Below are positions 10,342 to 26,892 of a stretch of DNA of 42,112 nucleotides, one piece after another. Position 1 is the stretch's first letter. Each line of letters starts with the position of its first letter. Origin of the DNA: Verrucomicrobium sp. BvORR106 (GTDB lineage Bacteria > Verrucomicrobiota > Verrucomicrobiia > Verrucomicrobiales > Verrucomicrobiaceae); NCBI RefSeq assembly GCF_000739655.1, contig NZ_BATR01000061.1, positions 1 through 42,112 of the forward strand. The letters run 5' to 3'. The notes beneath the pieces were generated by a model. The model was not told the DNA's origin and did no database searches. It saw only the letters and a list, made by a program, of their open reading frames with translations. Made by a program: the position numbers and the translations under genes.

Positions 10342-11163
10342 CTATCCCTGCCGGGCAAAGGCCGCGGCTCTTGCAATGAGGGCAGGCTCTGGACGGATGC
10401 CGGTGTAGAGCACGAACTGCTCGACCGCCTGCAGGACAATGACATCCGCTCCCGAAATGCAGGGTTTGCCCAAACTGGTTGCCAGTTGGATCAACGGCGT
10501 TTCGGCGGGAATCGCGACCACATCAAACACGGCCTGTGCCGAGCGTACCTGTGGTTCGGTAAAGGCCAGTTGCCCTGCTTCAGTGCCGCCGGTCATGCCG
10601 ATAGGCGTGACGTTGATCAGCAGGCCCGGGGTTTCATGCTTGAGCTCCTGCTTCCAGGCATAGCTGTATCGGGAGGCCAGCGCTTCTCCTGCGGATTGAT
10701 TTCGCGCCACGATGGTGCCCTTGGTGAATCCCGCATCTCGCAAGGCGCAGGCGACGGCCTTGGCCATGCCTCCGCTCCCACGAAGAGCGAAATCCAAATA
10801 AGTCGGGATGGCGTGCGACTTCAAGAGCGAGAAAACCGCGGTGTAGTCGGTGTTGTAGCCTTTGAGTACCCCTGCAGTGTTGACGATTGTGTTCACCGAC
10901 ATGATGCCTGCGGCGGAAGGTTCCAGCCCGTCGAGGTATTCGATGCAATCTTCCTTGAAGGGCATGGAAACGGCGCAGCCGCGAATGCCCAGCGCCCGGA
11001 TGCCAGTGATCGCCCCCGCGAGATTTCCCGTGGTGAAGGCCTTGTAAACAAAGTTCAGCCCCAGCTCGCGATAAAGGAAGTTGTGGAAGCGGGTGCCGAA
11101 GTTTCCCGGTCGCCCCGAGAGCGACATGCAAAGCTGGGTGTCTCTGTTGATGGAGGATTCCAT
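10342..11163 (-). CDS. Shikimate dehydrogenase-like protein (HI0607 type)
   Basis: 273 residues from ATG 11163; the longer frame to 11322 adds 53 unrelated residues. Motifs of the shikimate dehydrogenase superfamily are in order: N-terminal substrate region CMSLSGRPGNFGTRFHN, catalytic Lys in SMPFKED (K70), VNTIVN (90-95), NTD with the catalytic Asp (D106), the dinucleotide-binding loop GSGGMAKAV (129-137), NVTPIGM, and the C-terminal ISGADVIVLQAVEQF. The start CMSLSGRPG rather than the usual HSxSP, and the ISGADVIVLQAVEQF end, match the HI0607 (SDH-L) subfamily. That subfamily oxidises shikimate slowly and its true substrate is uncertain. No aro gene is nearby, which argues against a housekeeping AroE. 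Confidence 0.9.
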   Translation of the reverse strand: MESSINRDTQLCMSLSGRPGNFGTRFHNFLYRELGLNFVYKAFTTGNLAGAITGIRALGIRGCAVSMPFKEDCIEYLDGLEPSAAGIMSVNTIVNTAGVLKGYNTDYTAVFSLLKSHAIPTYLDFALRGSGGMAKAVACALRDAGFTKGTIVARNQSAGEALASRYSYAWKQELKHETPGLLINVTPIGMTGGTEAGQLAFTEPQVRSAQAVFDVVAIPAETPLIQLATSLGKPCISGADVIVLQAVEQFVLYTGIRPEPALIARAAAFARQG

Positions 11164-11489
11164 GAGGAAACCAAATGATGCGGTTGAAAAGGTGAGTGGA
11201 GCCCTTCTATCGGATCCCTGATTACGAACACCACGGCCAATTGGGTGCACGTTTGCAAGTATCCAGGGGGCCGCGGAGCATAGCGGTTCATCTGGAATCT
11301 TAATCTGGAGCCGTGCCGTCACGAGTTCGAAAAACTATGATGGGGGGCAATTCCCAATGACAACTCCCCGGAGCGACACAATATGTCGACGGGCTGTCGT
11401 AATGCATCTGGCCGTGTCGCCTCGCTGTTTCTGGGAGGTGCGCTCAGCGGAGCTCTGCGAACGATGGCTCCAACAATTGGTCCTGTATT
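11164..11489. other. Intergenic spacer, no gene
   Basis: 326 bases between divergent genes. I see no tRNA, terminator or repeat. A CGGCAC-N7-AGA string on the minus strand (11318-11304) looks faintly like the -24/-12 elements found further on, but it lacks the upstream dyads. Confidence 0.6.
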
Positions 11490-12708: not shown

Positions 12709-13377
12709 TCAACTAAGCAGCTTGATCATCTTCTCCGCGACCCCCTGTGCTGATGCAGGGTTTTGTCCGGTGACGAGGAGCCCGTCAGTGATGCTGTTCG
12801 GTTGCCAGGGCGGTACGGTGTGGAAGATGGCACCCTGGCTGGTGAGCGCTGTTTCCAACTCGAAGGGCACATCGGTCTTGGCGTAGTTCTCCTCTTCCTC
12901 ATTGGTGAAGGACGTGATGTTTTTGCCGTCCACGATGTAGGAGCCGTCGCTCAACCTCACGTTTAGCAGTGCCACGGGCCCGTGGCACACTGCGCCCACC
13001 ACTGCCTTGCGCTCATACGTCTCACGGACGACTTGCTTGAGCAGCGGGTGTTCGGGCATGTCGACCATGGGGGCCAGTCCTCCAGGAACGAAGATGGCGT
13101 CGTAGGGGCGGACATCGACGTCCGAGAGCTTTCCGGCCTTCTGCATCCGGGCCCATCCGTCGCCGACGAGGAAAGACAGGTTCGCTGGATCATCGGCGAG
13201 ATGGAGCGCATCAAGGTAGGGTGTGTCTCCCGTGAGACTGACGAAGTCCACTTGGTATTTGACCTTGTCGAACTCTGCATACGGATGCGCCACTTCGGGA
13301 AGAAAGATGCCCGTTCTCCGGTTGTGGGGACCGATGACGTTGGCGTTCGAAAGGATGATGAGAATCTTCTTGGACAT
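12709..13377 (-). CDS. DJ-1/PfpI family protein, cytosolic (copy 1)
   Basis: 222 residues with no signal peptide. The DJ-1/PfpI (class I glutamine-amidotransferase-like) fold is shown by the conserved acid in IFLPEVAHPY (E28), the IFVPGGLAPM strand-turn near 95-104, and the nucleophile elbow GAVCHGPVAL with C131 and H132. The insertion of about 50 residues before that region and the NITSFTNEEE segment resemble the Hsp31/glyoxalase III-like subgroup, which acts on methylglyoxal or glycated substrates. It is the last gene of the five-gene minus-strand unit led by the aldo/keto reductase, 37 bases after the ABM gene. A carbonyl detoxification role fits the neighbours; an exact substrate cannot be stated. 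Confidence 0.88.
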   Translation of the reverse strand: MSKKILIILSNANVIGPHNRRTGIFLPEVAHPYAEFDKVKYQVDFVSLTGDTPYLDALHLADDPANLSFLVGDGWARMQKAGKLSDVDVRPYDAIFVPGGLAPMVDMPEHPLLKQVVRETYERKAVVGAVCHGPVALLNVRLSDGSYIVDGKNITSFTNEEEENYAKTDVPFELETALTSQGAIFHTVPPWQPNSITDGLLVTGQNPASAQGVAEKMIKLLS

Positions 13378-13414
13378 AGTGAAGGTGAGTTTGGGTTGAT
13401 AACGATGTGCTGGT

Positions 13415-13705
13415 TCAATGAAGCTTTCTGACGATGGTCACGGTGCGGGATTCCAGACGGGGGACGATCTCTCCCACCACGATCTGCTGGTAGTGGTCCG
13501 ATTGCCGGTGAGCATCGGCGGCATACTGGTCGGCATAACATTCATGCAGGATGAACTCGTTGGGGTCAGTCTCTGACTGGTAGACGGAGTAAAAGAGGTT
13601 TCCCTCTTCCTTCCTGGTCTGTGCGGCCAGCTCTGGCAGCAGCTCCAGGACTCGCTGTGTTTCCGATACTTTGACCTTCCAGATGGCGATGATCTCTTTT
13701 TGCAT
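13415..13705 (-). CDS. Antibiotic biosynthesis monooxygenase (ABM) domain protein
   Basis: 96 residues forming a single ABM-type dimeric alpha/beta barrel (PF03992): an IIAIWKVKV strand, ELLPELAAQTRKEEGNLFYSVY (the EEGNL turn typical of the family), FILHECYADQYAADAHRQS, and a C-terminal strand RTVTIVRK. The start at 13705 was chosen over the longer frame because GAGGAGG sits 7 bases upstream. Members act as cofactor-free oxygenases or quinol/aldehyde-handling proteins (YgiN, LsrG type). It sits between the hydrolase and DJ-1 genes in one transcription unit. The same two domains are fused in the gene at 25442-26892. Confidence 0.9.
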   Translation of the reverse strand: MQKEIIAIWKVKVSETQRVLELLPELAAQTRKEEGNLFYSVYQSETDPNEFILHECYADQYAADAHRQSDHYQQIVVGEIVPRLESRTVTIVRKLH

Positions 13706-13745: not shown

Positions 13746-14510
13746 TCACTTGGCGGTGCTCTTCACGGCATCGAGGATGACGGCGAGCACCTCCTTGGGT
13801 TTGGACAGCATCGCCACATGGCCCGCGTCAAGAACAGTGGTTTTTGATTTGGCCCGCTTCGCCATCCACTCTTCCAGCTTGGGGTTGATGGTCTTGTCTT
13901 CTGAGGCGACCACATACCAGGAGGGTTTCGTCTTCCATGCGGCCTGCTGGCTCACTCCGGCGAAGACTTTGGGCGAGGCGGGTTGCTGTACGGCGTAGAT
14001 CATCTCCTGCTCGCTCTTCGACAAATCCCCGGCGAATGCCTTGGCCACTCCTTCTTTGGAAACCGTGAGGAGGCCGTTTGTTTCCTTGAGAAAATCGGAG
14101 AGCTGGGTTGCCGCGGCGTTCGCACTCAGGGTCGGCACGGTTTCGCCTTTGTCGGGAGCAAAGGCCGCGATATAGACCAGGCCTTTGACCTTGGGATGTA
14201 CTCCTGATTCCGTGATGACAAATCCACCCCAGGAATGGCCCACCAGAATCACGTCGCCCTTGGCTCGCTCAAGCGCCGCGTTCGTTGCTGCCACATCTTC
14301 ATCGAGGGATGTGGTAGGGTTCTGGACAGAGATGACTTCAAATCCGTCCTCGACCAGCGGAGTGATGACTTTGTTCCAGGATGTGCCGTCAGCCCAGAGG
14401 CCGTGGACGAAGACGATGGTGGGTTTTGCGTTCATGGCTTTTTCGGTTTGAGCAATAACACTTGAGAACAGGCCGCAGACGGCGGCAGCTAGGGCAATGG
14501 CGAGTTTCAT
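13746..14510 (-). CDS. Exported alpha/beta hydrolase
   Basis: 254 residues with a signal peptide (LAIALAAAVCGLFSSVIAQ), so probably periplasmic. The fold is clear: oxyanion segment VFVHGLWADGTSW, nucleophile elbow GHSWGG (S93), an acid candidate near ASEDKTINP (D205) and the catalytic His in DAGHVAML (H231). It resembles the short esterase-like hydrolases often seen next to oxidoreductases in stress clusters (PF12697). It is the third gene of the unit, 123 bases after the old yellow enzyme gene and 40 bases before the ABM gene. Ester or lactone hydrolysis is likely; the substrate is unknown. Confidence 0.88.
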   Translation of the reverse strand: MKLAIALAAAVCGLFSSVIAQTEKAMNAKPTIVFVHGLWADGTSWNKVITPLVEDGFEVISVQNPTTSLDEDVAATNAALERAKGDVILVGHSWGGFVITESGVHPKVKGLVYIAAFAPDKGETVPTLSANAAATQLSDFLKETNGLLTVSKEGVAKAFAGDLSKSEQEMIYAVQQPASPKVFAGVSQQAAWKTKPSWYVVASEDKTINPKLEEWMAKRAKSKTTVLDAGHVAMLSKPKEVLAVILDAVKSTAK

Positions 14511-14633: not shown

Positions 14634-15743
14634 CTAAGGTGTGGCGGCAAACAAGTTGCCGTGTTGCCTGGGCTGGCAACGGAGGTATTGCTTGGGTGCC
14701 TTGATCTGTGCTCCGAGTGCGGCTGCCGCATGCCAGGGCCAGCGTGGGTCGTATAACATGGTGCGAGCCAGCGCGATCATATCGGCGTCACCCGTTCCGA
14801 TGATGGCCTCTGCCTGCTCATATGAGGTGATCAGCCCCACAGCGACGACCGGCATCTTGACCGCTGCTTTGACAGCCCGCGCCAACGGTACTTGATAGCT
14901 GGGGCCCACCGGAATCTCCTGGGCTGGATGCAAGCCTCCGCTGGAGATGTGGATGGCGCTACAGCCGCGCTTCTCCAGTTCCCTGGCAAAGATGATGGAC
15001 TGCTCCACATCCCATCCACCAGCGACCCAATCCGTCGCAGAGAGGCGCACGCTCACGGGCTTCTCTGCAGGAAACACGGCGCGCACGGCATCAAAAACCT
15101 CCAGTGGAAATCGCATGCGATTCTCGAGCGTGCCCCCGTATTCATCTTCACGCTGATTCGAAAGCGGCGAAAGGAACTGGTGCAGCAGGTACCCATGTGC
15201 CGCATGAAGCTGGATCAACTGGATGCCCAGCCGGTCGGCGCGGGTGGCGGCGGCCGCGAAGGCATCGCGGATCCGCGTCATGTCCTCGATTGTGAGCGCG
15301 GTGGGAGGATGATCGCTGCTCTCGAAGGGAATGGCGGAAGGTGCCACCGTCTGCCACCCGTGGGCGTCTCCAGGGGGAAGCTGGTCACCTCCCTTCCACG
15401 GCACATCGGTCGAAGCCTTCCGTCCGGCGTGAGCCAGCTGGATGCCGATGGGCATGTCGAAACAGTTTCGAATGCCTTCCAGAACCCGGCGCATCGCGGC
15501 TTCCGTCTCATCATTCCACAGGCCGGTGTCTGCGTAGCTGATGCGCCCTTCAGGCAGCACTGCTGTCGCCTCAATGGTGAGCAAGGCTGCGCCAGAGAGC
15601 ATGAACTGGCCGAGGTGAACGAAGTGCCAGTCCGTCATGCAGCCCTCCACCGCCGAATACTGGCACATGGGTGCCACGACAATGCGGTTGGCCAGGGCGA
15701 GATTGCCAACCTGGATGGGCTTGAAGAGAGCAGGATGATTCAT
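14634..15743 (-). CDS. Old yellow enzyme (NADH:flavin oxidoreductase, YqjM-like)
   Basis: 369 residues from ATG 15743; the frame is open to 15848 but the start MNHPALFKPIQVGNLALANR is the family's normal N-terminus. It is an FMN-dependent ene-reductase of the bacterial YqjM-like class. Visible markers are C27 and Y30 in APMCQYSA, the Q102/H105 segment IQLAHAGRKAS, the H180/H183 pair in LHAAHGYLLHQFLSP, and EDEYGG. These enzymes reduce alpha,beta-unsaturated aldehydes, ketones and quinones with NAD(P)H and are commonly induced by electrophile or oxidative stress. It is the second gene of the unit, 46 bases after the aldo/keto reductase. Confidence 0.95.
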   Translation of the reverse strand: MNHPALFKPIQVGNLALANRIVVAPMCQYSAVEGCMTDWHFVHLGQFMLSGAALLTIEATAVLPEGRISYADTGLWNDETEAAMRRVLEGIRNCFDMPIGIQLAHAGRKASTDVPWKGGDQLPPGDAHGWQTVAPSAIPFESSDHPPTALTIEDMTRIRDAFAAAATRADRLGIQLIQLHAAHGYLLHQFLSPLSNQREDEYGGTLENRMRFPLEVFDAVRAVFPAEKPVSVRLSATDWVAGGWDVEQSIIFARELEKRGCSAIHISSGGLHPAQEIPVGPSYQVPLARAVKAAVKMPVVAVGLITSYEQAEAIIGTGDADMIALARTMLYDPRWPWHAAAALGAQIKAPKQYLRCQPRQHGNLFAATP

Positions 15744-15789
15744 GAGAATGCGGCTTGATGTGGGAGGAGTACTTTTAGCTGTAAACCAA

Positions 15790-16821
15790 TCACAGTTGGG
15801 AAGTTTCCCGCCACAGATCGATTCCCGCTTCCTTGGCGAACTGATCAATCTCCTCCAGCTCCGCGGTGCTGAATTCGAGGTTCTTCAGCGCATCGAGTGA
15901 GTCATCCAGTTGCTCGATGCTGCGAGCGCCGATGAGAGCTGAGGTCACGCGTTTGTCTCGCAACACCCAGGCGATAGCCATCTGAGCCAGAGTCTGCCCA
16001 CGGCCTTTGGCAATGGCTGCCAACCCACGGACGTTGCCTAGATTCTGCTCCGACAGAAACTCCTGCAGGAAGGTGCCGCCATCAAGCACCCGGCCTGTGG
16101 GGGCAGCGCCGCTGAGATACTTGTTGGTCAGCAAGCCCTGGGCCAGTGCGGAGAAGCCGATGCAGCCCACCCCCAGATCTCCGAGGACCTCCAGAAGACC
16201 GTCTTCGATGTGACGGTTGAGCATGGAGTAGGAGGGCTGGTGGATGAGGAGGGGAACACCTTCGCTCTGCAAGAGCTCATAAGCGCGCCGGGTCCGCTCG
16301 GGGCTGTAGGACGAGATGCCCACATGCAGGGTTTTGCCTTGCTTCACGAGTTGAGCCAGGGCTGACATGGTCTCTTCCATCGGTTCCCCGGGCCAGGGAC
16401 GGTGGGCATAGAAGATATCGACGTAGTCCACACCCAGTCGCCGCAGACTCTGGTCTATGGACGCGATGAGATGTTTCCTGGAGGCACCGATGCCGTAGGG
16501 GCCGGGCCACATTTCGTATCCTGCCTTGGTGGAAATCAGAAGTTCATCGCGCAGATGCCCGCGAAAGTCTTTTTTCAGGATCGCTCCGAGGTTCTCCTCA
16601 GCACTGCCGTTTGGTGGTCCGTACATGTTCGCCAGATCGAAGTGCGTCACCCCACGGTCAAACGCACGCTGGACGACAGCACGGCAAGTCTCGAAGACAT
16701 TCACCCCGCCGAAATTCTGCCAGAACCCCAGTGAAATGGCAGGCAGGGACAGGCCGCTCTTTCCGCAGCGGCGGAACTTTGCACTCTCGTATCGGGTGGG
16801 ATTGGGTTCGTAGGTATTCAT
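15790..16821 (-). CDS. Aldo/keto reductase (YghZ-like)
   Basis: 343 residues with the full AKR catalytic tetrad: D62 in THFDLANMYGPP, Y67, K99 in LLISTKAGYEMWPGPYG and H140 in IFYAHRPWPGEP. The MWPGPYG insertion and the SAEENLG motif match the YghZ/Kv-beta-like group, which reduces L-glyceraldehyde 3-phosphate and methylglyoxal with NADPH. It is the first gene of a five-gene minus-strand unit (AKR, OYE, hydrolase, ABM, DJ-1). The -24/-12-like element at 16840-16854 would place the transcript start only about 7 bases before this ATG. There is no ribosome site, so the mRNA may be nearly leaderless. Confidence 0.93.
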   Translation of the reverse strand: MNTYEPNPTRYESAKFRRCGKSGLSLPAISLGFWQNFGGVNVFETCRAVVQRAFDRGVTHFDLANMYGPPNGSAEENLGAILKKDFRGHLRDELLISTKAGYEMWPGPYGIGASRKHLIASIDQSLRRLGVDYVDIFYAHRPWPGEPMEETMSALAQLVKQGKTLHVGISSYSPERTRRAYELLQSEGVPLLIHQPSYSMLNRHIEDGLLEVLGDLGVGCIGFSALAQGLLTNKYLSGAAPTGRVLDGGTFLQEFLSEQNLGNVRGLAAIAKGRGQTLAQMAIAWVLRDKRVTSALIGARSIEQLDDSLDALKNLEFSTAELEEIDQFAKEAGIDLWRETSQL

Positions 16822-17002: not shown

Positions 17003-18058
17003 TCAATACTTGATCACCGCCCGTCCGACGACCTCGTTCGCTCGCAGCAGGTCGAGATACTCGTTGACCTGCTCGAATGCGATCGTCTTGATGGTGTGGC
17101 GGATCTTGTCCTGTGCGGCCAGTGCCATGACCTCGGTCAAGTCGGCATTGTTTCCCCAGAATGAGCCGTGGAAGGTCTGCTCGCGCGAGACTCGAGGAAA
17201 CAGCGGGACGTCGATGCGATCTCCCACAAACCCTACATCGACATAGTGACCGGAGATGCCCAGCAAGCTGAATCCCAGCTGCATCATTTCCGGAGCGCCC
17301 ACGGAGTCGATGATGGCGTCGAGATCACCCTGGCCGGTGGCCTTGCCAAGTTCCGCCGCGATCTCCTTGGGGGTCTTGTTCTTGACGCTGATGACGTGAT
17401 CCGCACCATAGCCTTTGGCGATCGCGAGTTTGTCCGGATTGCGGGCGAAGGCGACGACCTGTGCTCCACCCCCCAGTAGCTTGGCATACTGCACCGCATA
17501 GACGCCAAGTCCACCCACCCCGAAAACTCCAATCACCCGGCCCGGACCCAGCGCCCCGGCATCACGGAGTTTCTTGACGCCTCGATAAGGGGTCAAACCC
17601 GCATCGGTGAGTGGCGCGAGTTCCTCGAACTTCAGACGGCGCTCCACCTTGATGGCATAGCGGGACGGGACGGGGAGGTATTCCGCGAACCCGCCGTGAA
17701 GTCCGAACCCGGGCCAACGCACGTGCGTGCAGATCTGCGTATTGCCCACCAGGCAATGGCGGCAGGTGCCATCACCCCAGCCGGGCGCGACGACCACATG
17801 GTCACCTTCCTCGAATCCCACCGATTTCGATACGGCTCCGCCGATCTTGCTGACAATGCCTGTGATCTCATGACCCGGGGTGACCGGAGGTTTGATGTCG
17901 CCGTAACCCTGGAAGAACTTGTCCACCAGGAGCACGTCGCTGCGGCACATGCCGCAGGCCTTGACGTTGACGAGGATTTCATCGCCCTGGATATCAGGAA
18001 CCGGGATGTCTTCAAGGATGAGGGGTTTGCCATATTCGTGAATGCGGGCTGCTTTCAT
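17003..18058 (-). CDS. Zinc-dependent alcohol dehydrogenase (MDR family)
   Basis: 351 residues from ATG 18058 (MKAARIHEYGKP is the usual N-terminus; the frame opens earlier). Catalytic zinc ligands are C38 in ACGMCRSD and H63/E64 in PGHEITG. The structural zinc loop GWGDGTCRHCLVGNTQIC has C99, C102 and C110, but the first ligand is Asp (D96) instead of Cys, similar to archaeal ADHs with one acidic ligand. The Rossmann loop is GVFGVGGLGVYAVQYA. It would oxidise alcohols or reduce aldehydes with NAD(P). It belongs to unit B, behind a small ORF, under its own -24/-12-like promoter at 18361-18375. Confidence 0.93.
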   Translation of the reverse strand: MKAARIHEYGKPLILEDIPVPDIQGDEILVNVKACGMCRSDVLLVDKFFQGYGDIKPPVTPGHEITGIVSKIGGAVSKSVGFEEGDHVVVAPGWGDGTCRHCLVGNTQICTHVRWPGFGLHGGFAEYLPVPSRYAIKVERRLKFEELAPLTDAGLTPYRGVKKLRDAGALGPGRVIGVFGVGGLGVYAVQYAKLLGGGAQVVAFARNPDKLAIAKGYGADHVISVKNKTPKEIAAELGKATGQGDLDAIIDSVGAPEMMQLGFSLLGISGHYVDVGFVGDRIDVPLFPRVSREQTFHGSFWGNNADLTEVMALAAQDKIRHTIKTIAFEQVNEYLDLLRANEVVGRAVIKY

Positions 18059-18129
18059 AGTGTTTTGCTTTCTACTGTGGTGGGTTATCACTGAAAGGTT
18101 GTGTGGTGAGGCGGCGGATACTGAGCCGG

Positions 18130-18590: not shown

Positions 18591-19223
18591 GTGGCGTCGA
18601 TCCGACAGCATGAAAAATCGCCCACCGTGTTTGTGGTGGATGATGACTCGTCGATGCGCGAGTCGTTGAGCGGTTTGATGCGCTCTGTCGGGCTGCGCGT
18701 GGAGACGTTTTCCACGGCCAGGGAGTTTCTCCAGCGACCTCTACCCACGGGGCCCTCCTGCCTGATCCTGGATGTGGGGTTGCCGGATCTCAGTGGCATC
18801 GAACTCCAGCGCGAACTTCTCAACGCGCAACGCGTCATCCCCATCATCTTCATCACCGGTCATGGCGACATTCCGATGACGGTGCAGGCGATGAAGGCGG
18901 GCGCGGTGGAGTTTCTGACCAAGCCGTTTCGCGAGGATGTCCTCCTGGAATCCCTCCATCAAGCACTGGCCCGCGACCAGGCAGCGCTCGCTGGTCGGGC
19001 GGATTCAGACGGGCTTCGTACCCGCTACGAGACGTTGACGCCTCGCGAACGTGACGTGATGACACTGGTGGTGCGGGGGCTGCTGAACAAGCAGGTGGCG
19101 GCAGAGCTGGGCACCCACGTCATCACTGTGAAGACTCATCGCGGCCGGGTCATGCGCAAGATGAAGGCGGAATCTCTCGCGGATCTGGTGCGGATGGCGG
19201 AGAAGCTCCAGCTCGGAGCGTGA
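18591..19223 (+). CDS. FixJ-type response regulator (REC-LuxR)
   Basis: 210 residues with a GTG start at 18591. The receiver domain has the acidic pocket DDD (17-19), phospho-acceptor D61 in [12 protein letters not shown] and conserved K111 in FLTKPF. The C-terminal LuxR-type helix-turn-helix (about 147-205) contains [21 protein letters not shown] and the recognition helix around [14 protein letters not shown]. The receiver has the FixJ-like [19 protein letters not shown] segment. It is the first of three regulator genes in a row on the plus strand and divergent from the ADH unit. Its cognate kinase is most likely the FixL-like kinase at 23460-25292. Confidence 0.95.
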
Positions 19224-19309
19224 ACGTCGAGCCTCTGATCCAGGGTGTGAGACCTTGGTATAATAGATTTTGAGCGAAAGAAGACGCACTCTGGTGGAAC
19301 GCCCATCCG

Positions 19310-19675
19310 ATGACCAAAGTGCCCCTCATTTCCGTAGTAGACGACGACGAATCGCTCCGCGAATCGCTCAAGGGTCTGCTAAGATCGCTCGGCTACGGGC
19401 ATGCCGTTTTCTCATCGGCCGAGAGTTTTCTGGAATCAGAGGCGCTGTTCACGGCGGACTGCCTGATTCTTGATGTCTGCATGCCGGGGATGAGCGGGCC
19501 TGACCTCCAGAGAGAGCTCATCCGGCGGGGGCTGAAGATTCCCATCATCTTCGTCACCGCGCATGGAGATGAGAATGCTGCACGCATGAAGGCTGCCGGT
19601 GCCGTGGACTGCCTGCTCAAGCCCTTCAGAGAGGAAGCTTTGCTGCATGCGATTGATCGAGCCCTTTCCGACTAA
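19310..19675 (+). CDS. Single-domain (REC-only) response regulator
   Basis: 121 residues, receiver only, with DDD at 11-13, phospho-acceptor D55 in LILDVCMPGMSG and K104 in LLKPF. Compared with its neighbours it is about two residues shorter between the HGD motif and AAGAVD, and has AHGDENAARMKAAGAVD instead of the usual [16 protein letters not shown]. That changes the alpha4 face used for dimerisation. With no output domain it probably acts as a phosphate sink, relay or competitor in the HK-FixJ-NtrC system. It lies 86 bases after the FixJ-type gene and 41 bases before the NtrC-type gene. Confidence 0.93.
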   Translation: MTKVPLISVVDDDESLRESLKGLLRSLGYGHAVFSSAESFLESEALFTADCLILDVCMPGMSGPDLQRELIRRGLKIPIIFVTAHGDENAARMKAAGAVDCLLKPFREEALLHAIDRALSD

Positions 19676-19716
19676 CCGAATGACTCCGAGAAAAACAACC
19701 TGCCCACAATTGTGTC

Positions 19717-21114
19717 ATGAAGCTTGTCGATGCTCTCGTCTGTGTAATTGATGATGATGCCTCCATCCGGGAAGCCGTTTGCGGATTGCTGCGGTCAGAG
19801 GGATTGCGCGTGGAGACCTACAGTTCCGCGGACGATTTCCTGACGCGGGACCGTGCCGAGCCACCTGGCTGCCTTGTCCTTGATGTGGAGTTGCCCGGAC
19901 TAAGCGGCCTGCAGTTGCAGCGTGAACTCTTCCGTCAGGAGCCGCACATCCCCATTGTGTTTTTGACCGGACATGGGGATATCTCCATGTCGGTGCGCGC
20001 GATCAAGGCGGGTGCCTTCGAGTTCCTCACCAAGCCTTTCGATCCTGAGGAACTGCTCGATGCGGTGCAAGAGAGCCTGCTGACGCGCGAGTACCGAGGC
20101 CCTCGGACGAAGGACCAAGAATCGTCGCTATCTGGTGAGATTGTCGGACTCGGCCATGCTTACCGCGCGTTGATCAAACAGATCGCCGTGGTGGCGCCGA
20201 CTGATTCCACCGTCCTGATCCAGGGAGAAACGGGCACAGGCAAAGAACTGGTAGCACGTGAAATTCACAAGCTGAGCCGCCGGAAGGAGAAGCCTCTGGT
20301 CCGTGTGAATTGTGCCTCCATCCCGAAAGAGCTGTATGAGAGTGAGTTCTTTGGGCATGTGCGTGGAGCCTTCACGGGAGCCGTCAAGGATCGCATGGGG
20401 CGCTTTGAAGCGGCTCACGGTGGCACGCTCTTCCTCGATGAGATCGGGGAAATTCCCATTGAACTTCAAAGCAAGCTCTTGCGTGCGCTCCAGGAGAAAC
20501 AATTCGAGCGGGTCGGTGATGAACGAACGAGGCGCGTGGATGTGCGGGTCGTGGCCGCGACGAACCGTGATCTCAAGGCCGAGGTGGCTGCAGGGAGATT
20601 TCGCGAGGATCTCTACTATCGGCTGAATGTCTTTCCTTTGCGCGTCTGTCCGCTTCGTGATCGTCGGGAGGATATCCCGCAGCTTGCCCGATACTTCGTG
20701 GAACTGATCGCCAAGGAGATGAAATGCACCAAGCCACGTCTGACCGAGGCAGGGGTGATCCGGTTGCAGGAGTATGACTGGCCGGGCAACATCCGCGAAC
20801 TGCGCAATGTCATCGAGCGTGCCACCATCCTGGCACGTGGCAAGGTGCTCGAATTCGATCTTCCGACTGCGGCGGCTCCCGCGAGCGTGGCACCGGTGCT
20901 CCCGGCCTATCGACTCGGCAGCCAGGCAAACGCAGAACCCGAGTTCATGACCGAACCGGAAATTCAGCGTCGCGAGCGGGAGAACCTGCGCATTGTTCTG
21001 AACAAAACCGGCTGGAAAGTGGGTGGCCCCAGTGGTGACGCGGAGTTGCTGGGCATCAAGCCCACCACGTTGATCTCGCGGATCAAGAAGATGGGCTTGA
21101 GTCGCGAGACGTGA
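19717..21114 (+). CDS. NtrC-family sigma-54 activator (REC-AAA+-Fis)
   Basis: 465 residues. The receiver (1-125) has acidic pocket D12-D14, phospho-acceptor D56 in LVLDVELPG and K107, and is FixJ-like in sequence. The AAA+ domain (about 141-380) contains Walker A GETGTGKE (170-177), the sigma-54 contact loop GAFTGA (217-222), Walker B LFLDEIGE (about 238-245), and the arginine-finger region [13 protein letters not shown] Fis-type helix-turn-helix ends the protein (about 421-462, recognition helix [13 protein letters not shown]). It should activate sigma-54 promoters by binding dyads about 100 bp upstream. The five -24/-12-like elements with paired dyads in this window are the obvious candidate targets. 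Confidence 0.97.
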
Positions 21115-21158: not shown

Positions 21159-22226
21159 TCACGGTTGGGGCCGTGGCGTGGTGGCGGTCTCCACGGGAAG
21201 TTGAGGTATCTGCACGGCAGGCTGTTTTCCTGTGAGCGTCTGCAGGAATTCAGTGATTTCATCGATCTCCATCTCTGTCAGCGTTGCGCCGAGCTGGCTG
21301 GAGCCCATGATGGCCACTGCCTCCTTCAGATCCCACACCTGTCCCGAATGGAAATAGGGGGCCGTGAGAGCAATGTTGCGCAGAGGCGCTGCGCGAAACA
21401 CGTAGTTGTCGGTTTCGGTCTTGGTCACGGCAAAGCGACCCCGATCACCGGGTGGCCGCACCTTTGCATCCGGTGCGGCCACGACACCAAACGGGAAATA
21501 GGATTGCCCGCCGAGATTCACTCCGCTATGGCAGGCCACGCAGCCTTTGCTCATGAAGTGTTGCAGACCACGCAGTTCCTTGGTCGAAAGCGCCTTGGAG
21601 TCCCCTTTGAGCAGTTGGTCGAATCGAGAATCGGGCGTGATCAGCGTGGCTTCGAATGCCTCGATGGCCTTGGCCACATTCGCAAAGGTCACGGGCTCGG
21701 CGTCATCCGCGAATGCCTCCTCAAAACGTCGCACGTACTCCGGCAGACTCTTGATCACGGCGACGACGGCGGCGGGATCGCTCGCCATCTCGACACTTGC
21801 CTGCAAAGGGCCGGGCGCTTGCGTCTTCAAGTCTTCGGCACGTCCATCCCAAAACTGCGCCACATTGAACACGGCATTGAGCACGGTGGGTGAATTGCGC
21901 GGCCCTCTCTGCCAATCATGGCCAATGGAGGTGACGAGGTTGTCATCCCCGCCCATGCCGAGGTTGTGGCAGGTGTAGCAGCTGATGACGCCGCTCTTGG
22001 AAAGTCGCGGATCGAAGAAGAGCATGTGGCCCAGTTCACTGCGGCCAGGAGTCACGGTATTGCCCTTCAGTTCGGGAATGCCGTAGGGCACAGGTCTGAA
22101 CATTGCCTGGGCCTGGGTGATGAGCATCGGTTCTGTCGGCTCTGCCAGCAATCTCCCGACAGCAAGGGCAATGGCGACGATGGGCAGAAAGATGCCTGCA
22201 GAGGGGGTAGCCATGCAATCGCGCAA
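21159..22226 (-). CDS. Di-haem cytochrome c peroxidase (CcpA/MauG family), TTG start
   Basis: 355 residues. Two haem c sites, CYTCH (83-87) and CVACH (229-233), lie in the typical two-domain spacing, with family motifs ELGHMLFFDPRLS, NSPTVLNAVFN, FWDGRAEDL and TAPYFHSG. A signal peptide (IFLPIVAIALAVGRLLA) sends it to the periplasm, where it would reduce H2O2 with electrons from cytochrome c. The start is set at TTG 22226: AGGAGG lies 6 bases before it, whereas the nearest ATG (22214) is 18 bases from that site. It is the second gene of unit C, 117 bases after the exported PfpI gene. Confidence 0.92.
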   Translation of the reverse strand: MRDCMATPSAGIFLPIVAIALAVGRLLAEPTEPMLITQAQAMFRPVPYGIPELKGNTVTPGRSELGHMLFFDPRLSKSGVISCYTCHNLGMGGDDNLVTSIGHDWQRGPRNSPTVLNAVFNVAQFWDGRAEDLKTQAPGPLQASVEMASDPAAVVAVIKSLPEYVRRFEEAFADDAEPVTFANVAKAIEAFEATLITPDSRFDQLLKGDSKALSTKELRGLQHFMSKGCVACHSGVNLGGQSYFPFGVVAAPDAKVRPPGDRGRFAVTKTETDNYVFRAAPLRNIALTAPYFHSGQVWDLKEAVAIMGSSQLGATLTEMEIDEITEFLQTLTGKQPAVQIPQLPVETATTPRPQP

Positions 22227-22343
22227 GGTGTTCCTCCTGGCAGCGGATGGGGATGTCGTGGAGAGCTTCGGATTGGGCTTCATCTCGGCGCGGCAATTGA
22301 GGGCCCGGGACATGTGTCCCGGGTCCTGAGTTCGAGGTTTGTT

Positions 22344-23141
22344 TTACTTGGCGATCAGCCAGTCCTTCAGCGCGACTGAGAAGTCAGCCACATCGATGGG
22401 ATGTCGGCTGGTGATGAGATTGCCATCGACCACCACCGGTTGCTCCAGCACCTGCCCGCCGGCGTTGGTGAGGTCACTCTGGATGTTCCAGTAGCCGGTG
22501 AGTTTTCTGCCCTTGAGGATGTCCGCAGATGCCAGCACGACTGGTGCATGGCAGATGGCGGCGATGAGCTTCCCGGATTTGTTGAACTCCTGGACGAAGC
22601 GGATCACATCCTTGTCGTAGCGCAGGTTGTCAGGATTCCATGCGCCACCAGGGATGAAGATGGCATCGTACTCGGCAACCTTGATCTGATCGGCAGTGCG
22701 GTCGACCTTGATCCAGCCCACCGGGTTGAGGTACTGAATCGCCATGATGTGATCCTTCGCCATATCCGGCGTGCTGAGGCCATATCTCGCGGGTGCTGGA
22801 TTGAACTTTGGCGCCACGATATCCACTTTGGCTCCCAGCGCCTTCAGGTACCACACAGGTCCGGTGAGCTCGATCTCTTCGAAGCCGTCGGCGGCCAGCA
22901 CCGCGATGCGTTTCCCTTTGAGCACCTCCTTGTCCTTGATCGGGGTGAAGAAGAAAGCCTTCAGCGCTTCATTGCCCGGCGCATTGAGCAACTGAGAGAC
23001 GGGCATCGTGGACACGGCCGTCTTGGTCGCGAGTTGATTCATAACATCCAGCTCATAGGAGCTGTTCCCCTGGGCTGGGGCGTCGAATGCGGTGAGTGCA
23101 CTGAGCGCGCCCGCGATGAGGATGGTGTTCAAGGTTTTCAT
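22344..23141 (-). CDS. Exported DJ-1/PfpI family protein (copy 2)
   Basis: 265 residues from ATG 23141, with a signal peptide (LNTILIAGALSALTAFDAPAQG). A helical linker of about 50 residues precedes a PfpI-type domain: LAADGFEEIELTGP (E88/E89/E91), IFIPGGAWNPD, and nucleophile elbow AAICHAPVVL with C197 and H198; the end has the usual DVADFSVALKDWL. Unlike copies 1 and 3 it belongs to the compact PfpI/YhbO-like branch. Periplasmic placement next to a cytochrome c peroxidase suggests protection of envelope proteins against oxidants or reactive carbonyls. It is the first gene of unit C, with a 100-base leader from its -24/-12 promoter. Confidence 0.9.
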   Translation of the reverse strand: MKTLNTILIAGALSALTAFDAPAQGNSSYELDVMNQLATKTAVSTMPVSQLLNAPGNEALKAFFFTPIKDKEVLKGKRIAVLAADGFEEIELTGPVWYLKALGAKVDIVAPKFNPAPARYGLSTPDMAKDHIMAIQYLNPVGWIKVDRTADQIKVAEYDAIFIPGGAWNPDNLRYDKDVIRFVQEFNKSGKLIAAICHAPVVLASADILKGRKLTGYWNIQSDLTNAGGQVLEQPVVVDGNLITSRHPIDVADFSVALKDWLIAK

Positions 23142-23251
23142 GGATTCTGTCGGTCTGTGTTTAGCGGTTATGGCGAAGCGCGGGCCCACCGCTGGAATGG
23201 CGGCAGCCTCACGCGTGGTTTTTAAGGACGCATGTCCCGCCACACTCTTAA

Positions 23252-23266
23252 GCAAGGCAGATGCCA
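23252..23266 (-). promoter_or_regulatory. Sigma-54 -24/-12 promoter, unit C
   Basis: The minus strand reads TGGCATCTGCCTTGC, the closest match to the canonical sigma-54 consensus in the window (TGGCA, GG-N10-GC, TTGC). The predicted start near 23240 gives a leader of about 100 bases before the PfpI gene. The -24 box overlaps an inverted repeat ATGCCA / TGGCAT (23261-23266, 23278-23283). Confidence 0.78.
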
Positions 23267-23336
23267 CTTATGTTATTTGGCATAACCACCTGTCCGACAA
23301 CGCTTTGGGAAATGCCGGACCCCCTGCGGTCAGCTT

Positions 23337-23459: not shown

Positions 23460-25292
23460 CTACTCGATCGGCAAGGTGAAGAGAAATGTCGCGCCATGGC
23501 CCTCATTGGACTTGGCGGTGAGGCGTCCTCCATGGGACACGACAATCGACTGGCAGATGGTGAGGCCCATGCCCAGTCCATCTGCTTTCGTGGTAAAGAA
23601 GCGGTCAAAGAGGCGCTCGACCGTGGACGGGCTTAATCCTATTCCGGTATCCTGCACCTGCACCGAGACAGCTTCCGCCTCGCGTCCGGTATGGATTCGC
23701 AACACCCGGGGTCGGTCCGCGATGCCATTCATGGCATCGAGACCATTCCGCACCAGGTTCATGATGACCTGCTGGATCTGGACGCGGTCTATCGCCACTT
23801 CAGGAAGGTCCTCGCTGAGGTCGCATTCCAATTTTACGCTCCGTTTCCGGATGTCGGTGGTGAGCAGCGGCAGGATCTCTTCGATGACCGCATTGATGCT
23901 CGACGACTCACGAATGGGCTTGTCTTTTGCGAGCAGGGCGCGGATGCGCATGATGATCTGCCCGGCGCGATCACCATCGCTGATGATCCGCTGGACCGCG
24001 GCCCGCGCCTCTTCAATGTCGCAGCGCTCTGGGCTCAGCCAGCGCAGACAGGTGCTGGCGTTGGTGGTCATGGCGGAGAGGGGCTGGCTGATCTCGTGAG
24101 CAATGGATGCGGTGAACTCCCCGAGCGTGGTGGCGCGAGCCATGCGATTCATCTCCACCTCTGCTTTGCGCAGCGCCGCCTCCTTCATCTTGTTGAGTTC
24201 TTCACGCAGCCGCTGATGCGCAATGTATCGGCTCAACCCAAAAGCCAGGGCACTGATGCCGAACACTGCCAGGGTCCACACCTGAGGCTGCTTCCACCAG
24301 GGAGCGAGCACGGTGATGGAAAGGGTGGTCTCCGCGCCATTCGGCAGGCCCTGGAGATCCACCGGCTGGACGCGCAGTTTATAGGTCCCCGGTGCGGGGT
24401 GGTTGTAGTCCTGAACCGAAAGGGTTCCTCCGCCCACGCTATGAGCCTGGCTCCATTCGATTTCCAATTGGTCGTTCCCGGCCACGGCGGGGGCATTTTC
24501 CTTGACCGAGCGCCATTCCGCATGAGCGCCCACGTCGTCATCGATAAGTGCAAAGCATTGCTCCCCTTGTCCGCCCGGTGAAGCTGGCGCGAGGGTGAGG
24601 AGCCGGGCCATTTTCGGATGGATTCCATCGGCGACGAACCCATTGGGCGCAGGCAGTACGGGTGAGAAGCGGGTATCGTTCCCCACCGGAGCGCGCAGGA
24701 TGACCTCTGGAGGGCCACCTTCACGGGTGCGTGTGATTTTGAGATCCTTCACCAGCAATGTGCCCAGAGTATCCGGCGGGCCCCCACCTGAGGTAATGAT
24801 GAGCCAGAGATTCTGGCTGCCCGGGGGAACGGTCACCGTCGCCTTCCGGGTGGTGAACACGGGTTTCTCCAAGCTGCCATTCCAGTCCGGTGTTTCCCCA
24901 ATGACACTCTCTATTTCCTGCTCCACTGGTTCTCGCTTTTCATTGAAGAACCGGAGGCGGATGCCCATCTGGCAGGTGTTTTCACGCCACTGTGTATCAA
25001 TCCCTTCCAGCAGGTACTTCCGCCGCCGCGGCTGATCCGGCTTCATGTAAACGGCGAACCGTCGAATCGCAGGTGGCAGTGAAAGGGACGGCATCCCGAG
25101 TGTCGGAAAGATCTCTCCATCAATGGCGACTTCGATGATTTCCGCCCCTGGCTGGGCAGGCAATGAAAGGGGAATCGACTGGGCCTGTACGTCCTGGGCC
25201 AACACCAACCCCACCGTGGCAGTCACGCAGCAAAGCGGCCGTGCAAGCGGGTGATGCCAACGGTCAATATTGGGACGGAATACTCTGGACAT
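23460..25292 (-). CDS. Sensor histidine kinase with periplasmic Y_Y_Y-like domain
   Basis: 610 residues from ATG 25292. A signal or anchor region (about 15-38) is followed by a periplasmic beta-rich sensor (40-330) ending in PGTYKLRVQPVDLQG...TTLSITVLAPWW, the typical end of a Y_Y_Y domain. A membrane helix lies at about 336-355. A HisKA domain follows with phospho-acceptor H399 in SIAHEISQPLSAM, then HATPase_c with N516 (NLVRNGLDAMNG), DTG (548-550) and GLGMGL (572-577). The H-box resembles the FixL family, which pairs with FixJ/NtrC-like receivers. An alternative GTG start at 25445 overlaps the upstream stop and would extend the N-terminus. It is the second gene of unit D, so the kinase sits inside the regulon it presumably controls. 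Confidence 0.93.
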   Translation of the reverse strand: MSRVFRPNIDRWHHPLARPLCCVTATVGLVLAQDVQAQSIPLSLPAQPGAEIIEVAIDGEIFPTLGMPSLSLPPAIRRFAVYMKPDQPRRRKYLLEGIDTQWRENTCQMGIRLRFFNEKREPVEQEIESVIGETPDWNGSLEKPVFTTRKATVTVPPGSQNLWLIITSGGGPPDTLGTLLVKDLKITRTREGGPPEVILRAPVGNDTRFSPVLPAPNGFVADGIHPKMARLLTLAPASPGGQGEQCFALIDDDVGAHAEWRSVKENAPAVAGNDQLEIEWSQAHSVGGGTLSVQDYNHPAPGTYKLRVQPVDLQGLPNGAETTLSITVLAPWWKQPQVWTLAVFGISALAFGLSRYIAHQRLREELNKMKEAALRKAEVEMNRMARATTLGEFTASIAHEISQPLSAMTTNASTCLRWLSPERCDIEEARAAVQRIISDGDRAGQIIMRIRALLAKDKPIRESSSINAVIEEILPLLTTDIRKRSVKLECDLSEDLPEVAIDRVQIQQVIMNLVRNGLDAMNGIADRPRVLRIHTGREAEAVSVQVQDTGIGLSPSTVERLFDRFFTTKADGLGMGLTICQSIVVSHGGRLTAKSNEGHGATFLFTLPIE

Positions 25293-25441
25293 GGACGCAT
25301 GAATTATCCTCAACAGCAGACTCAAAGCAACCATCCAACGTATAGGTGTGGCAAAACCTTGGCAGCAGGTCCAATGGACCTGCCGCCTCGCTGTGCTGTG
25401 CCGGGGGAGAGAGGCGTTCCGATCCCCAAAGGTTCCTCGGT

Positions 25442-26892
25442 TCACTCGCGCGCAGGCGATGCAAACTCGACAAGGAGATGCAGACCTGCCTGAAAGGGTT
25501 GTTTCTGGATGCTCGTCTGCAGGTATGCCAGCACTGGCTTGATGGGTGGGAATTCCAGGTGGCGTTGGAAGGCGTCCTTGCTCCGGAACTTCTCGAAGGT
25601 GACAAACTTCGTGTCTTCACCTTCCACCCGGGACAGCTGGTAAGTGACCACGCCAGGCTGGCTGCGGAATGGCGGCATGGCCACGTGATAGGTATCCATG
25701 AAGGCCTGCTGCGTTCCCGGTTGCGAGTCAACGAAGAGCATCACGGTGAGCGGTTGATCCTCCACGCGTGGTGCCCGGCGCCACTGCTCCTTCGAGAGCG
25801 GTTCCAGATCCTTTACATAGTAGATCTCCGCTTTGGCATCCAGCGCTGCGGTCTTTAACACATCGATGGCTTTTGCGTGCTCACTGAGGTCGAATTGCCG
25901 GAGCTCATTCCTGTCTGTCCATCTTTCGATCAGCCAGAACACGGAGATCTTATCCTGCTCTGAGAAAGCTTCTGCCTGGATGTTGCCCTCCTCGTTTCTG
26001 GCTTGCGTCACATAGTCCGTCAGCACTTTGCGGAAGTCATCACGTGATGCCGGTTTCACAGAATATCGGGTGAGCCTACCCACCACGGTGAGATGCTTTA
26101 CCTGCTCAAGCACCGCTTTTCCCACAGCCGTTGCCGACTGCGGGTTCTGTCCGGTTACGACTCGCTGGTCGGCGACGGCATGAGGAAGAAACGGACCGGA
26201 CTTCTCGAAGATGGCGCCACGTTCTTGCAGCTTCGACTCCAGCAGAAAAGGAACCACCTTGTCCAGCTTCACAGCCACCTCTTCTTCATTGGTGAAGGCA
26301 TTGATCTTCTTGCCCTTCACGAGGTATTCGCCGTTGGAGAGTTTGAGGTTGACCAGTCCCGCCGGACCATGGCACACCGCGCTCACGATGCCATTGTTCT
26401 CGTAAATGGTGGTCGCAAGCTTCGCCAAGGTGACATCGTCTGGGAAGTCCCACATCGTGCCATGCCCGCCGGCGAAATGAATGGCGACATACTCCCTGGG
26501 GTCAATCTCCGACGGCTTCTTGGTGTGCTCGATCTTGTCCCGATACACTTTATCCCCCAGAATTTTCGGTTGATCGGGTCCGCAAGGTCGAAGCCATCCA
26601 CGGGAGCTTTCCCGCCCTTGGGACTTACGAAGTCGATTTCATAGCCGGCACTCACCAGCACCTCCCAAGGGTGTGTGACTTCCGACAGGTAGAAGCCCGT
26701 GGGCTCTCCCGTGTCGCCCTTCTTGTCATGACTGGTGACTGCAAACAGCACCTTTCCCTTCCGCGACTCCGATGGTTGTGCCTGCGTGGATGCAAGATTC
26801 ATGATGATCATAAGGCTTGTGATCGTGATCACCATCCAGCGTCTGGATCCCAGTGTCAGCGTGCTTGAGTTTCTCTCTGTGGATGTGTTCAT
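25442..26892 (-). pseudogene. Exported DJ-1-ABM-ABM fusion (DJ-1 copy 3), split by a frameshift
   Basis: The N-terminal frame (ATG 26892) carries a signal peptide (VITITSLMIIMNLASTQAQ) and the first part of a DJ-1 domain (TGFYLSEVTHPWEVL, E71; DLADPINRKFWG). It then runs into unrelated sequence. The DJ-1 domain resumes in another frame from about 26556 (DKVYRDKIEH, then SAVCHGPAGL with the nucleophile Cys). It continues through two ABM domains (LTVVGRLTRYSVKP... and LTVMLFVDSQPG...) to the stop at 25442. The break falls in a G5 tract (26554-26558); six Gs would restore one frame of about 483 residues. It could be a sequencing error, phase variation or a true mutation; both halves look otherwise intact. 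First gene of unit D. Confidence 0.85.

Follow-up and report, generated by a model that had tools for sequence, protein, structure and literature searches.

Recurrent pairing of DJ-1-type and ABM genes suggests that their products work together, probably in reactive-aldehyde clearance

DJ-1 and ABM genes in Verrucomicrobium sp. BvORR106

The window analysed here, a 42,112-nt stretch of DNA from Verrucomicrobium sp. BvORR106 (contig NZ_BATR01000061.1, assembly GCF_000739655.1), encodes DJ-1 and ABM proteins in two places, unit A and unit D. In unit A the minus strand carries ABM_A (13415-13705), a 96-aa LsrG-like single-domain ABM protein, and downstream of it DJ1_A (12709-13377), a 222-aa DJ-1 protein of the Hsp31/glyoxalase III-like kind without a signal-like start. 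The two genes are separated by 37 bases (13378-13414), which confirms the coordinates and the gap given in the first-pass annotation, and the plus strand across both is interrupted by stops. DJ1_A was assigned by Pfam, by alignment to Candida Glx3 and yeast Hsp31 and by residue conservation; ABM_A was assigned by Pfam, by a family alignment (A1, built from 26 hand-picked ABM sequences) and by profile matches in the PDB. Both exceed their Pfam cut-offs (DJ-1_PfpI, PF01965: 56.5 against 26.6 bits; ABM, PF03992: 62.2 against 23.1 bits). The phmmer matches of DJ1_A in the PDB include 4lru and 4qyx, with the whole of DJ1_A covered by the alignment. It stays under the NCBIfam HchA equivalog cut-off (50.8 versus 365 bits) and, judged by sequence, is a relative of HchA and not HchA itself. 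ABM_A stays under the NCBIfam LsrG equivalog model NF007791 (36.4 versus 135 bits). Its profile has 18 PDB matches at E up to 0.01, which include PA3566 (PDB 1x7v) and, as the best characterised match, LsrG; no entry among the 18 is labelled YgiN, as judged by name only. A promoter/terminator scan gave no signal clearly exceeding shuffles.

Upstream of the pair, also on the minus strand, follow an alpha/beta hydrolase with a signal-like N-terminus (13746-14510; Pfam Abhydrolase_6, 103.3 bits), an NADH:flavin oxidoreductase of the old yellow enzyme type (14634-15848; Pfam Oxidored_FMN, 208.1 bits, best NCBIfam matches under cut-off), an aldo/keto reductase of the NCBIfam L-glyceraldehyde 3-phosphate reductase subfamily (15790-16821; 449.4 bits against a cut-off of 448) and a zinc-type alcohol dehydrogenase (17003-18091; Pfam ADH_zinc_N and ADH_N). 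The gene order hydrolase-ABM-DJ-1 recurs in Haloferula (L083) and in G061, a genome of the window's family. Downstream of DJ1_A, a minus-strand gene (10342-11322) matches the shikimate 5-dehydrogenase model NF009202 at 435 bits (cut-off 306), Pfam picking up the N-terminal domain alone.

Unit D holds a gene that fuses a DJ-1 domain to two ABM domains and that is broken by a frameshift into two frames of the minus strand. The N-terminal half (26383-26892), with a signal-like stretch and the first half of the DJ-1 domain, lies in a different frame from the remainder (25442-26548), which encodes the second DJ-1 half, ABM 1 and ABM 2 (Pfam: two ABM stretches, 83.3 bits; DJ-1, 35.8 bits). Compared with the intact fusion of G062, another genome of the family, both sides are under purifying selection (omega 0.08 over 70 codons and 0.10 over 367 codons, respectively), and the break would therefore be recent or an assembly error. 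Close to the fusion, a further minus-strand gene (22344-23267) encodes a DJ-1 protein of the PfpI/YhbO type with a signal-like stretch, DJ1_P (Pfam, 160.2 bits; NCBIfam TIGR01382, 144.2 bits against a cut-off of 139.05). This type is a recurrent partner of tandem-ABM and fusion genes. A sensor histidine kinase (23460-25445, minus) lies between the fusion and DJ1_P, a di-haem cytochrome c peroxidase (CCP/MauG; 21159-22313, minus) adjoins DJ1_P on its other side, and the plus strand at 18591-21114 carries three consecutive response regulators, one of them of the sigma-54 type. Sigma-54-type regulators precede the fusion in G644 and G692 too.

The first-pass annotation had described unit D as joining the same DJ-1 type to two ABM domains. 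One DJ-1 and two ABM stretches are indeed there, but split across two frames in the window, and sameness of the DJ-1 type holds at the level of a broad Hsp31-like class: the fused DJ-1 shares 44% identity with DJ1_A over residues 78-218 and 35% over residues 4-69, and in a quick tree that carries a long-branch warning it falls outside the DJ1_A clade and groups with proteins from Persicobacter, Azotobacter and Sinorhizobium. We rejected the possibility that the fusion consists of joined unit A genes on the basis of this quick tree and since phmmer finds no match of ABM_A on the fusion ORFs at an E limit of 1e-4. As the DJ-1 of the fusion and that of unit A come from different branches, adjacency and fusion look like parallel cases, the fusion apparently joining this other DJ-1 branch to a tandem-ABM branch. 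Relatives of the fused DJ-1 have ABM close by in Azotobacter (order DJ-1, SDR, ABM) and on pSymA of S. meliloti (DJ-1, DJ-1, ABM), and none nearby in Persicobacter (L017).

Recurrence of the pair and of the fusion

A scan of named genomes with DJ-1 alone yielded 62 DJ1_A loci at 65-82% identity, a set that is strongly weighted to Flavobacterium and related genera, contains two loci from a single contig (L028 and L058) and includes some short ones. In 54 of them an ABM ORF lies on the same strand within 2.5 kb, as detected with profiles built from our own matches, while across the same 963 kb all but two ABM ORFs have a DJ-1-type ORF within 2.5 kb; chance pairing is thus excluded. Counted by subfamily, ABM_A precedes DJ-1 in 14 loci and follows it in 40; counted by the nearest ABM the split is 15 to 39, since in L053 a tandem ABM sits closer than ABM_A, which is ~2.2 kb downstream. 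The pair spans Bacteroidota, Cyanobacteriota, Gammaproteobacteria and Verrucomicrobiota, with Nostoc, Methylomonas and Haloferula among its carriers, so that the refutation named in the first-pass annotation, pairing in no second genome, can clearly be dismissed. The eight loci with no ABM beside DJ1_A come from Nostoc (two), Methylobacterium (two, of which L034 is a contig of only 3.5 kb), Planctomycetota (three) and Xanthocytophaga (one). In a quick tree, many of whose forks are weak, the DJ1_A proteins are not grouped by phylum, which suggests that DJ-1 genes were transferred between phyla.

ABM is the commonest family besides DJ-1 among the clustered neighbours (54 of 66 sources), the next being a Crp-like family (45). 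Over 61 of the 62 loci (L030 is not counted because its DJ-1 was in none of the clusters), and with each cluster named by Pfam on a single representative, the Crp-like cluster is directly upstream in 39, and 19 have an aldehyde dehydrogenase cluster in the same orientation no more than four genes away. This aldehyde dehydrogenase scores best with the NCBIfam lactaldehyde dehydrogenase model, though under the cut-off. An aldehyde dehydrogenase is also among the neighbours of the pair in G061. Old yellow enzyme neighbours occur in the window, G061, G644 and Neorhizobium, and alcohol dehydrogenase neighbours in the window, G061 and Neorhizobium.

Searching from the ABM side, we covered 23 of the 24 genomes reached through DJ-1 loci (that of L042 was left out) and found 24 ABM matches at E 1.5e-15 or better, 22 of which adjoin DJ-1, the one of L053 at ~2.2 kb. 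The two unpaired ones (L152, 9324-9626, and L153, 7804-8181) are close ABM_A relatives in G448 and G467 with no DJ-1 within several kb; both genomes carry DJ1_A elsewhere. In three of the 23 genomes, all with DJ1_A, there was no ABM_A match at E 1e-5. A fairer test is provided by 296 evenly drawn Bacteroidota genomes: seven ABM matches at E 1e-10 or better in six genomes all lie beside DJ-1, and five of the seven come from five genomes not selected via DJ-1, in one of which (G636) the partner is a more distant DJ-1 type. Among 398 Pseudomonadota genomes there were seven ABM matches, and only the genome from which the Methylomonas locus was taken has the pair; the other six (32-42% identity) have no DJ-1 within ~5 kb, one of these regions being cut by a contig end. 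The sole match in 244 Cyanobacteriota genomes is the unpaired one of G448.

With 0 of 6 of the more distant Pseudomonadota matches paired, we rejected the notion that ABM genes generally stand beside DJ-1. The converse, that Hsp31-like DJ-1 genes generally stand beside ABM, was rejected as well: none of 28 more distant Hsp31-like DJ-1 loci of the window's phylum has an ABM within ~1.5 kb on each side (L090-L117), and none of three loci from the window's family has one beside DJ-1 (L024-L026). Seven regions with more distant plasmid-borne DJ-1 genes, picked from listings, have ABM nearby in three cases (L018, L019 and L121) and not in four (L017, L122, L123 and L124). Since distant DJ-1 loci are thus mostly unpaired, the link belongs to particular subfamilies, and the module is real, conserved and largely subfamily-specific. 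In L122 and L123 the plasmid-borne distant DJ-1, with no ABM match around it, lies amid aldo-keto reductases, a DUF1330 protein, a glyoxalase, an alcohol dehydrogenase and an NADH-flavin oxidoreductase.

The upstream-type and downstream-type ABMs form two groups (mean distance 0.637 between and 0.41-0.42 within), whereas their DJ-1 partners differ little (0.236 between versus 0.18-0.22 within). Recruitment of ABM on two occasions beside nearly the same DJ-1 is a plausible reading of these distances. ABM and DJ-1 distances covary over 58 pairs (r 0.62; 0 of 1000 permutations as high), the pairs including four added by ORF as well as those of the window, L020, L023 and L118.

The DJ-1-ABM-ABM fusion occurs in six genomes from the window's phylum and Bacteroidota: three of 68 genomes of the window's family (G000, G061 and G062), additionally G368 among 387 genomes of the phylum, and G644 and G692 among the 296 Bacteroidota genomes. 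It is one open frame in four of them, including G062 (525 aa) and G368 (504 aa); in G061 the frame is broken at a different point, where one ABM domain gives way to the other. With Pfam, two ABM stretches are recognised in G644 and one, at its limit, in G692, where our own profile finds two. Another feature of the G692 fusion (L170, 8778-10199) is that serine replaces the catalytic cysteine in its DJ-1 domain. In both G644 and G692 a PfpI-type DJ-1 gene comes after the fusion, followed in G644 by an old yellow enzyme and an aldo-keto reductase; another contig of G644 has a separate run of Crp, DJ1, ABM and aldehyde dehydrogenase genes. G368 combines DJ1_P, fusion, ABM_A and DJ1_A as four neighbouring genes in one run. 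Unfused tandem ABM genes adjoin PfpI-type DJ-1 in L016, L049, L052, L053, L054 and L172, and no DJ-1 lies close to the tandem ABM of G750 or, within 2.5 kb, to the second tandem ABM of L053. None of 691 matching plasmid records had one place covering 80% of the fusion query, and of 11 matches in phage records, several of them short and possibly from bacterial contigs, the ten listed concern the DJ-1 part only.

Conserved residues, predicted fold and predicted export

C131, H132, E161 and E162 are present in all 67 rows of the DJ1_A alignment, and E28 in 66, the remaining row having a gap there. By alignment to Candida Glx3 and yeast Hsp31 we take E28, C131, H132 and E161/E162 to be the candidate positions of a Glu-Cys-His active site. 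In ABM_A the invariant polar residues are W8, E32, N35, Y38, E54, H65 and R86 (positions in alignment A1, whose first position is residue 2).

The AlphaFold2 model of the intact G062 fusion without its leader has a mean pLDDT of 92.3 and a pTM of 0.77. Structures of Hsp31 and glyoxalase III (4lru) align with it over ~220-240 columns, and 3f44 and 3mcs, two ABM structures with two domains each, over 213-216 columns. Because of the latter matches, the two fused ABM domains probably pair within one chain, like the two subunits of an ABM dimer.

Most fusion, tandem-ABM and PfpI-type proteins have signal-like hydrophobic starts, as judged from a hydropathy peak rather than from a trained predictor, and most DJ1_A and ABM_A proteins have none. 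A clean compartment split, with unit A cytosolic and unit D exported, holds only in part, given a signal-like extension in 22 of 66 DJ1_A rows, nearly all from Flavobacterium. Avrilella (L039) carries the DJ-1/ABM pair twice; in one copy both proteins have a signal-like N-terminus, in the other neither does.

A possible role in carbonyl clearance and relation to known systems

The direct evidence covers linkage, recurrence, subfamily specificity, conserved active-site residues, partner genes and a confident fold prediction for the fusion. That DJ-1 and ABM are functionally linked, as the first-pass annotation proposed, is strongly supported by recurrence across phyla and by fusion in six genomes. 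Since they adjoin across several phyla and are sometimes fused, we suggest that the two proteins work together, probably in reactive-aldehyde clearance. The earlier guess at the substrate, a quinone or a reactive aldehyde, is better supported in its second half, because of the glyoxalase III-type active-site residues, the aldehyde dehydrogenase neighbours, the LsrG match and a published precedent: according to PMC12274486, glyoxal upregulates no other region of P. aeruginosa as strongly as that of arqI and gloA2, arqI being an ABM gene and its protein most similar to LsrG. Support for the quinone half comes chiefly from a name used in annotation and from the old yellow enzyme neighbours. The consecutive steps raised in the first-pass annotation, like a transfer of product between the two proteins, are hypotheses.

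From this evidence we infer substrate, catalysis by either domain, export and direct cooperation as follows. With moderate confidence, we read DJ1_A and ABM_A as a two-protein module against small reactive carbonyls, with alpha-oxoaldehydes such as glyoxal or methylglyoxal as the most likely substrates. DJ1_A, a predicted glutathione-independent glyoxalase of the Hsp31/Glx3 type, would use its Glu-Cys-His site to convert a 2-oxoaldehyde to a 2-hydroxy acid; the LsrG-like ABM_A may bind or convert a related dicarbonyl, its hydrate or an isomer; and what is left over could be oxidised or reduced by the neighbouring aldehyde dehydrogenase, aldo-keto reductase, alcohol dehydrogenase and old yellow enzyme. 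The fusion, with its signal-like start, one Hsp31-like domain, two ABMs and a PfpI-type DJ-1 nearby, would be a second, probably exported version. Several observations run against the aldehyde reading: the eight of 62 DJ1_A loci and the two of 24 ABMs that are unpaired, the plasmid pairing in only three of seven regions, and the Cys-to-Ser exchange in G692. Given those eight loci and the three of 23 genomes lacking an ABM_A match, DJ-1 can act alone.

Other explanations account for parts of the same data. One is quinone or hydroquinone detoxification: ABM would act as a quinol monooxygenase of the YgiN type, quinones and enones would be reduced by old yellow enzyme and alcohol dehydrogenase, and the part of DJ-1 would be to repair or protect proteins. 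This would explain why two such ABMs are annotated 'putative quinol monooxygenase', and the old yellow enzyme and alcohol dehydrogenase neighbours listed above fit quinone chemistry equally. We consider it unlikely, as the ABM profile matches LsrG and no YgiN-labelled PDB entry among its 18 matches (E up to 0.01), aldehyde dehydrogenase is a frequent neighbour and the published precedent concerns glyoxal. ABM might instead be a non-catalytic, aldehyde-responsive protein that alters another process while DJ-1 removes the aldehyde. This is modelled on ArqI, which the available text of PMC12274486 proposes as a regulator rather than as a demonstrated enzyme, and which according to the same text interacts with PqsA, its induction abolishing PQS production. 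The greater divergence of ABM (mean between-arrangement distance 0.637 versus 0.236 for DJ-1) would suit such a sensor, but the invariant polar residues of ABM_A could make up a binding or active site, and we regard this reading as quite unlikely.

Finally, both families might simply ride in the same stress operons as co-regulated genes with no common substrate, which would agree with close DJ1_A relatives in several phyla and with the other oxidoreductases that travel along. Against it stand the rank of ABM as the commonest partner (54 of 66 sources, ahead of the Crp-like family with 45), the absence of pairing in two distant control sets (0 of 28 and 0 of 6, set against three of the seven plasmid regions), the covariation of distances (r 0.62, unmatched in 1000 permutations) and fusion in two phyla, and we hold it to be very unlikely.

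Clearance of alpha-oxoaldehydes by DJ-1 and ABM could go further and form one glutathione-independent pathway with direct hand-over, DJ-1 acting on the 2-oxoaldehyde and ABM on whatever isomer, hydrate or adduct is no substrate for DJ-1. The pathway would come in two versions, one cytosolic and made of two genes, the other exported, with a DJ-1 joined to two ABM domains that form a pseudo-dimer within the chain. We regard this extension as doubtful; if true, the ABM family, which is large and for the most part uncharacterised, would gain a general function in the defence against reactive carbonyls. Both DJ-1 and ABM families are large and poorly assigned, and a subfamily-specific, multi-phylum pairing with fusion offers a direct handle on the function of such ABM proteins, gives bacterial DJ-1 relatives a defined partner and allows a common substrate class to be tested for with just two purified proteins.

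Among known systems, DJ1_A resembles the glutathione-independent glyoxalase III enzymes Hsp31 and Glx3, which it matches over its full length with the Glu-Cys-His residues kept; it differs in lying far under the HchA cut-off and in being paired with ABM, and we know of no ABM pairing for the Hsp31/Glx3 glyoxalases. ABM_A belongs to the same ABM fold family as LsrG of AI-2 catabolism and fails the curated LsrG model. DJ1_P of the window is above the cut-off of the family that holds P. aeruginosa PfpI and YhbO, from which it differs by its signal-like N-terminal extension and by adjoining tandem-ABM or fusion genes. In the available sections of PMC11987610, PfpI of P. aeruginosa is a methylglyoxalase and the ABM protein PA3566 is lowered in the pfpI deletion mutant (log2 -1.109), as one of the 20 most lowered proteins listed there and with no special role assigned to it.

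The closest parallel is arqI-gloA2 together with the ABM-VOC glyoxalase fusions, of which 24 proteins are described in the available text of PMC12274486, from a fusion search that used PF00903 and not DJ-1. As far as that text goes, an LsrG-like ABM is encoded with a glyoxalase there and with a candidate glyoxalase here, fusions also occur in both systems, and there the tie to alpha-oxoaldehydes comes from experiment. The partner there is GloA2, whereas here it is a DJ-1-fold protein of another family, a glyoxalase by prediction only, and the fusion has two ABMs and a signal-like start. Among the open-access PMC papers listed, neither titles nor abstract starts mention a DJ-1-ABM pair or fusion. 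The DJ-1-ABM module looks like an undescribed form of a known partnership, one that extends the ABM-glyoxalase association of P. aeruginosa to a glyoxalase candidate of a different fold: the association is already known, and the DJ-1-type partner appears to be new.
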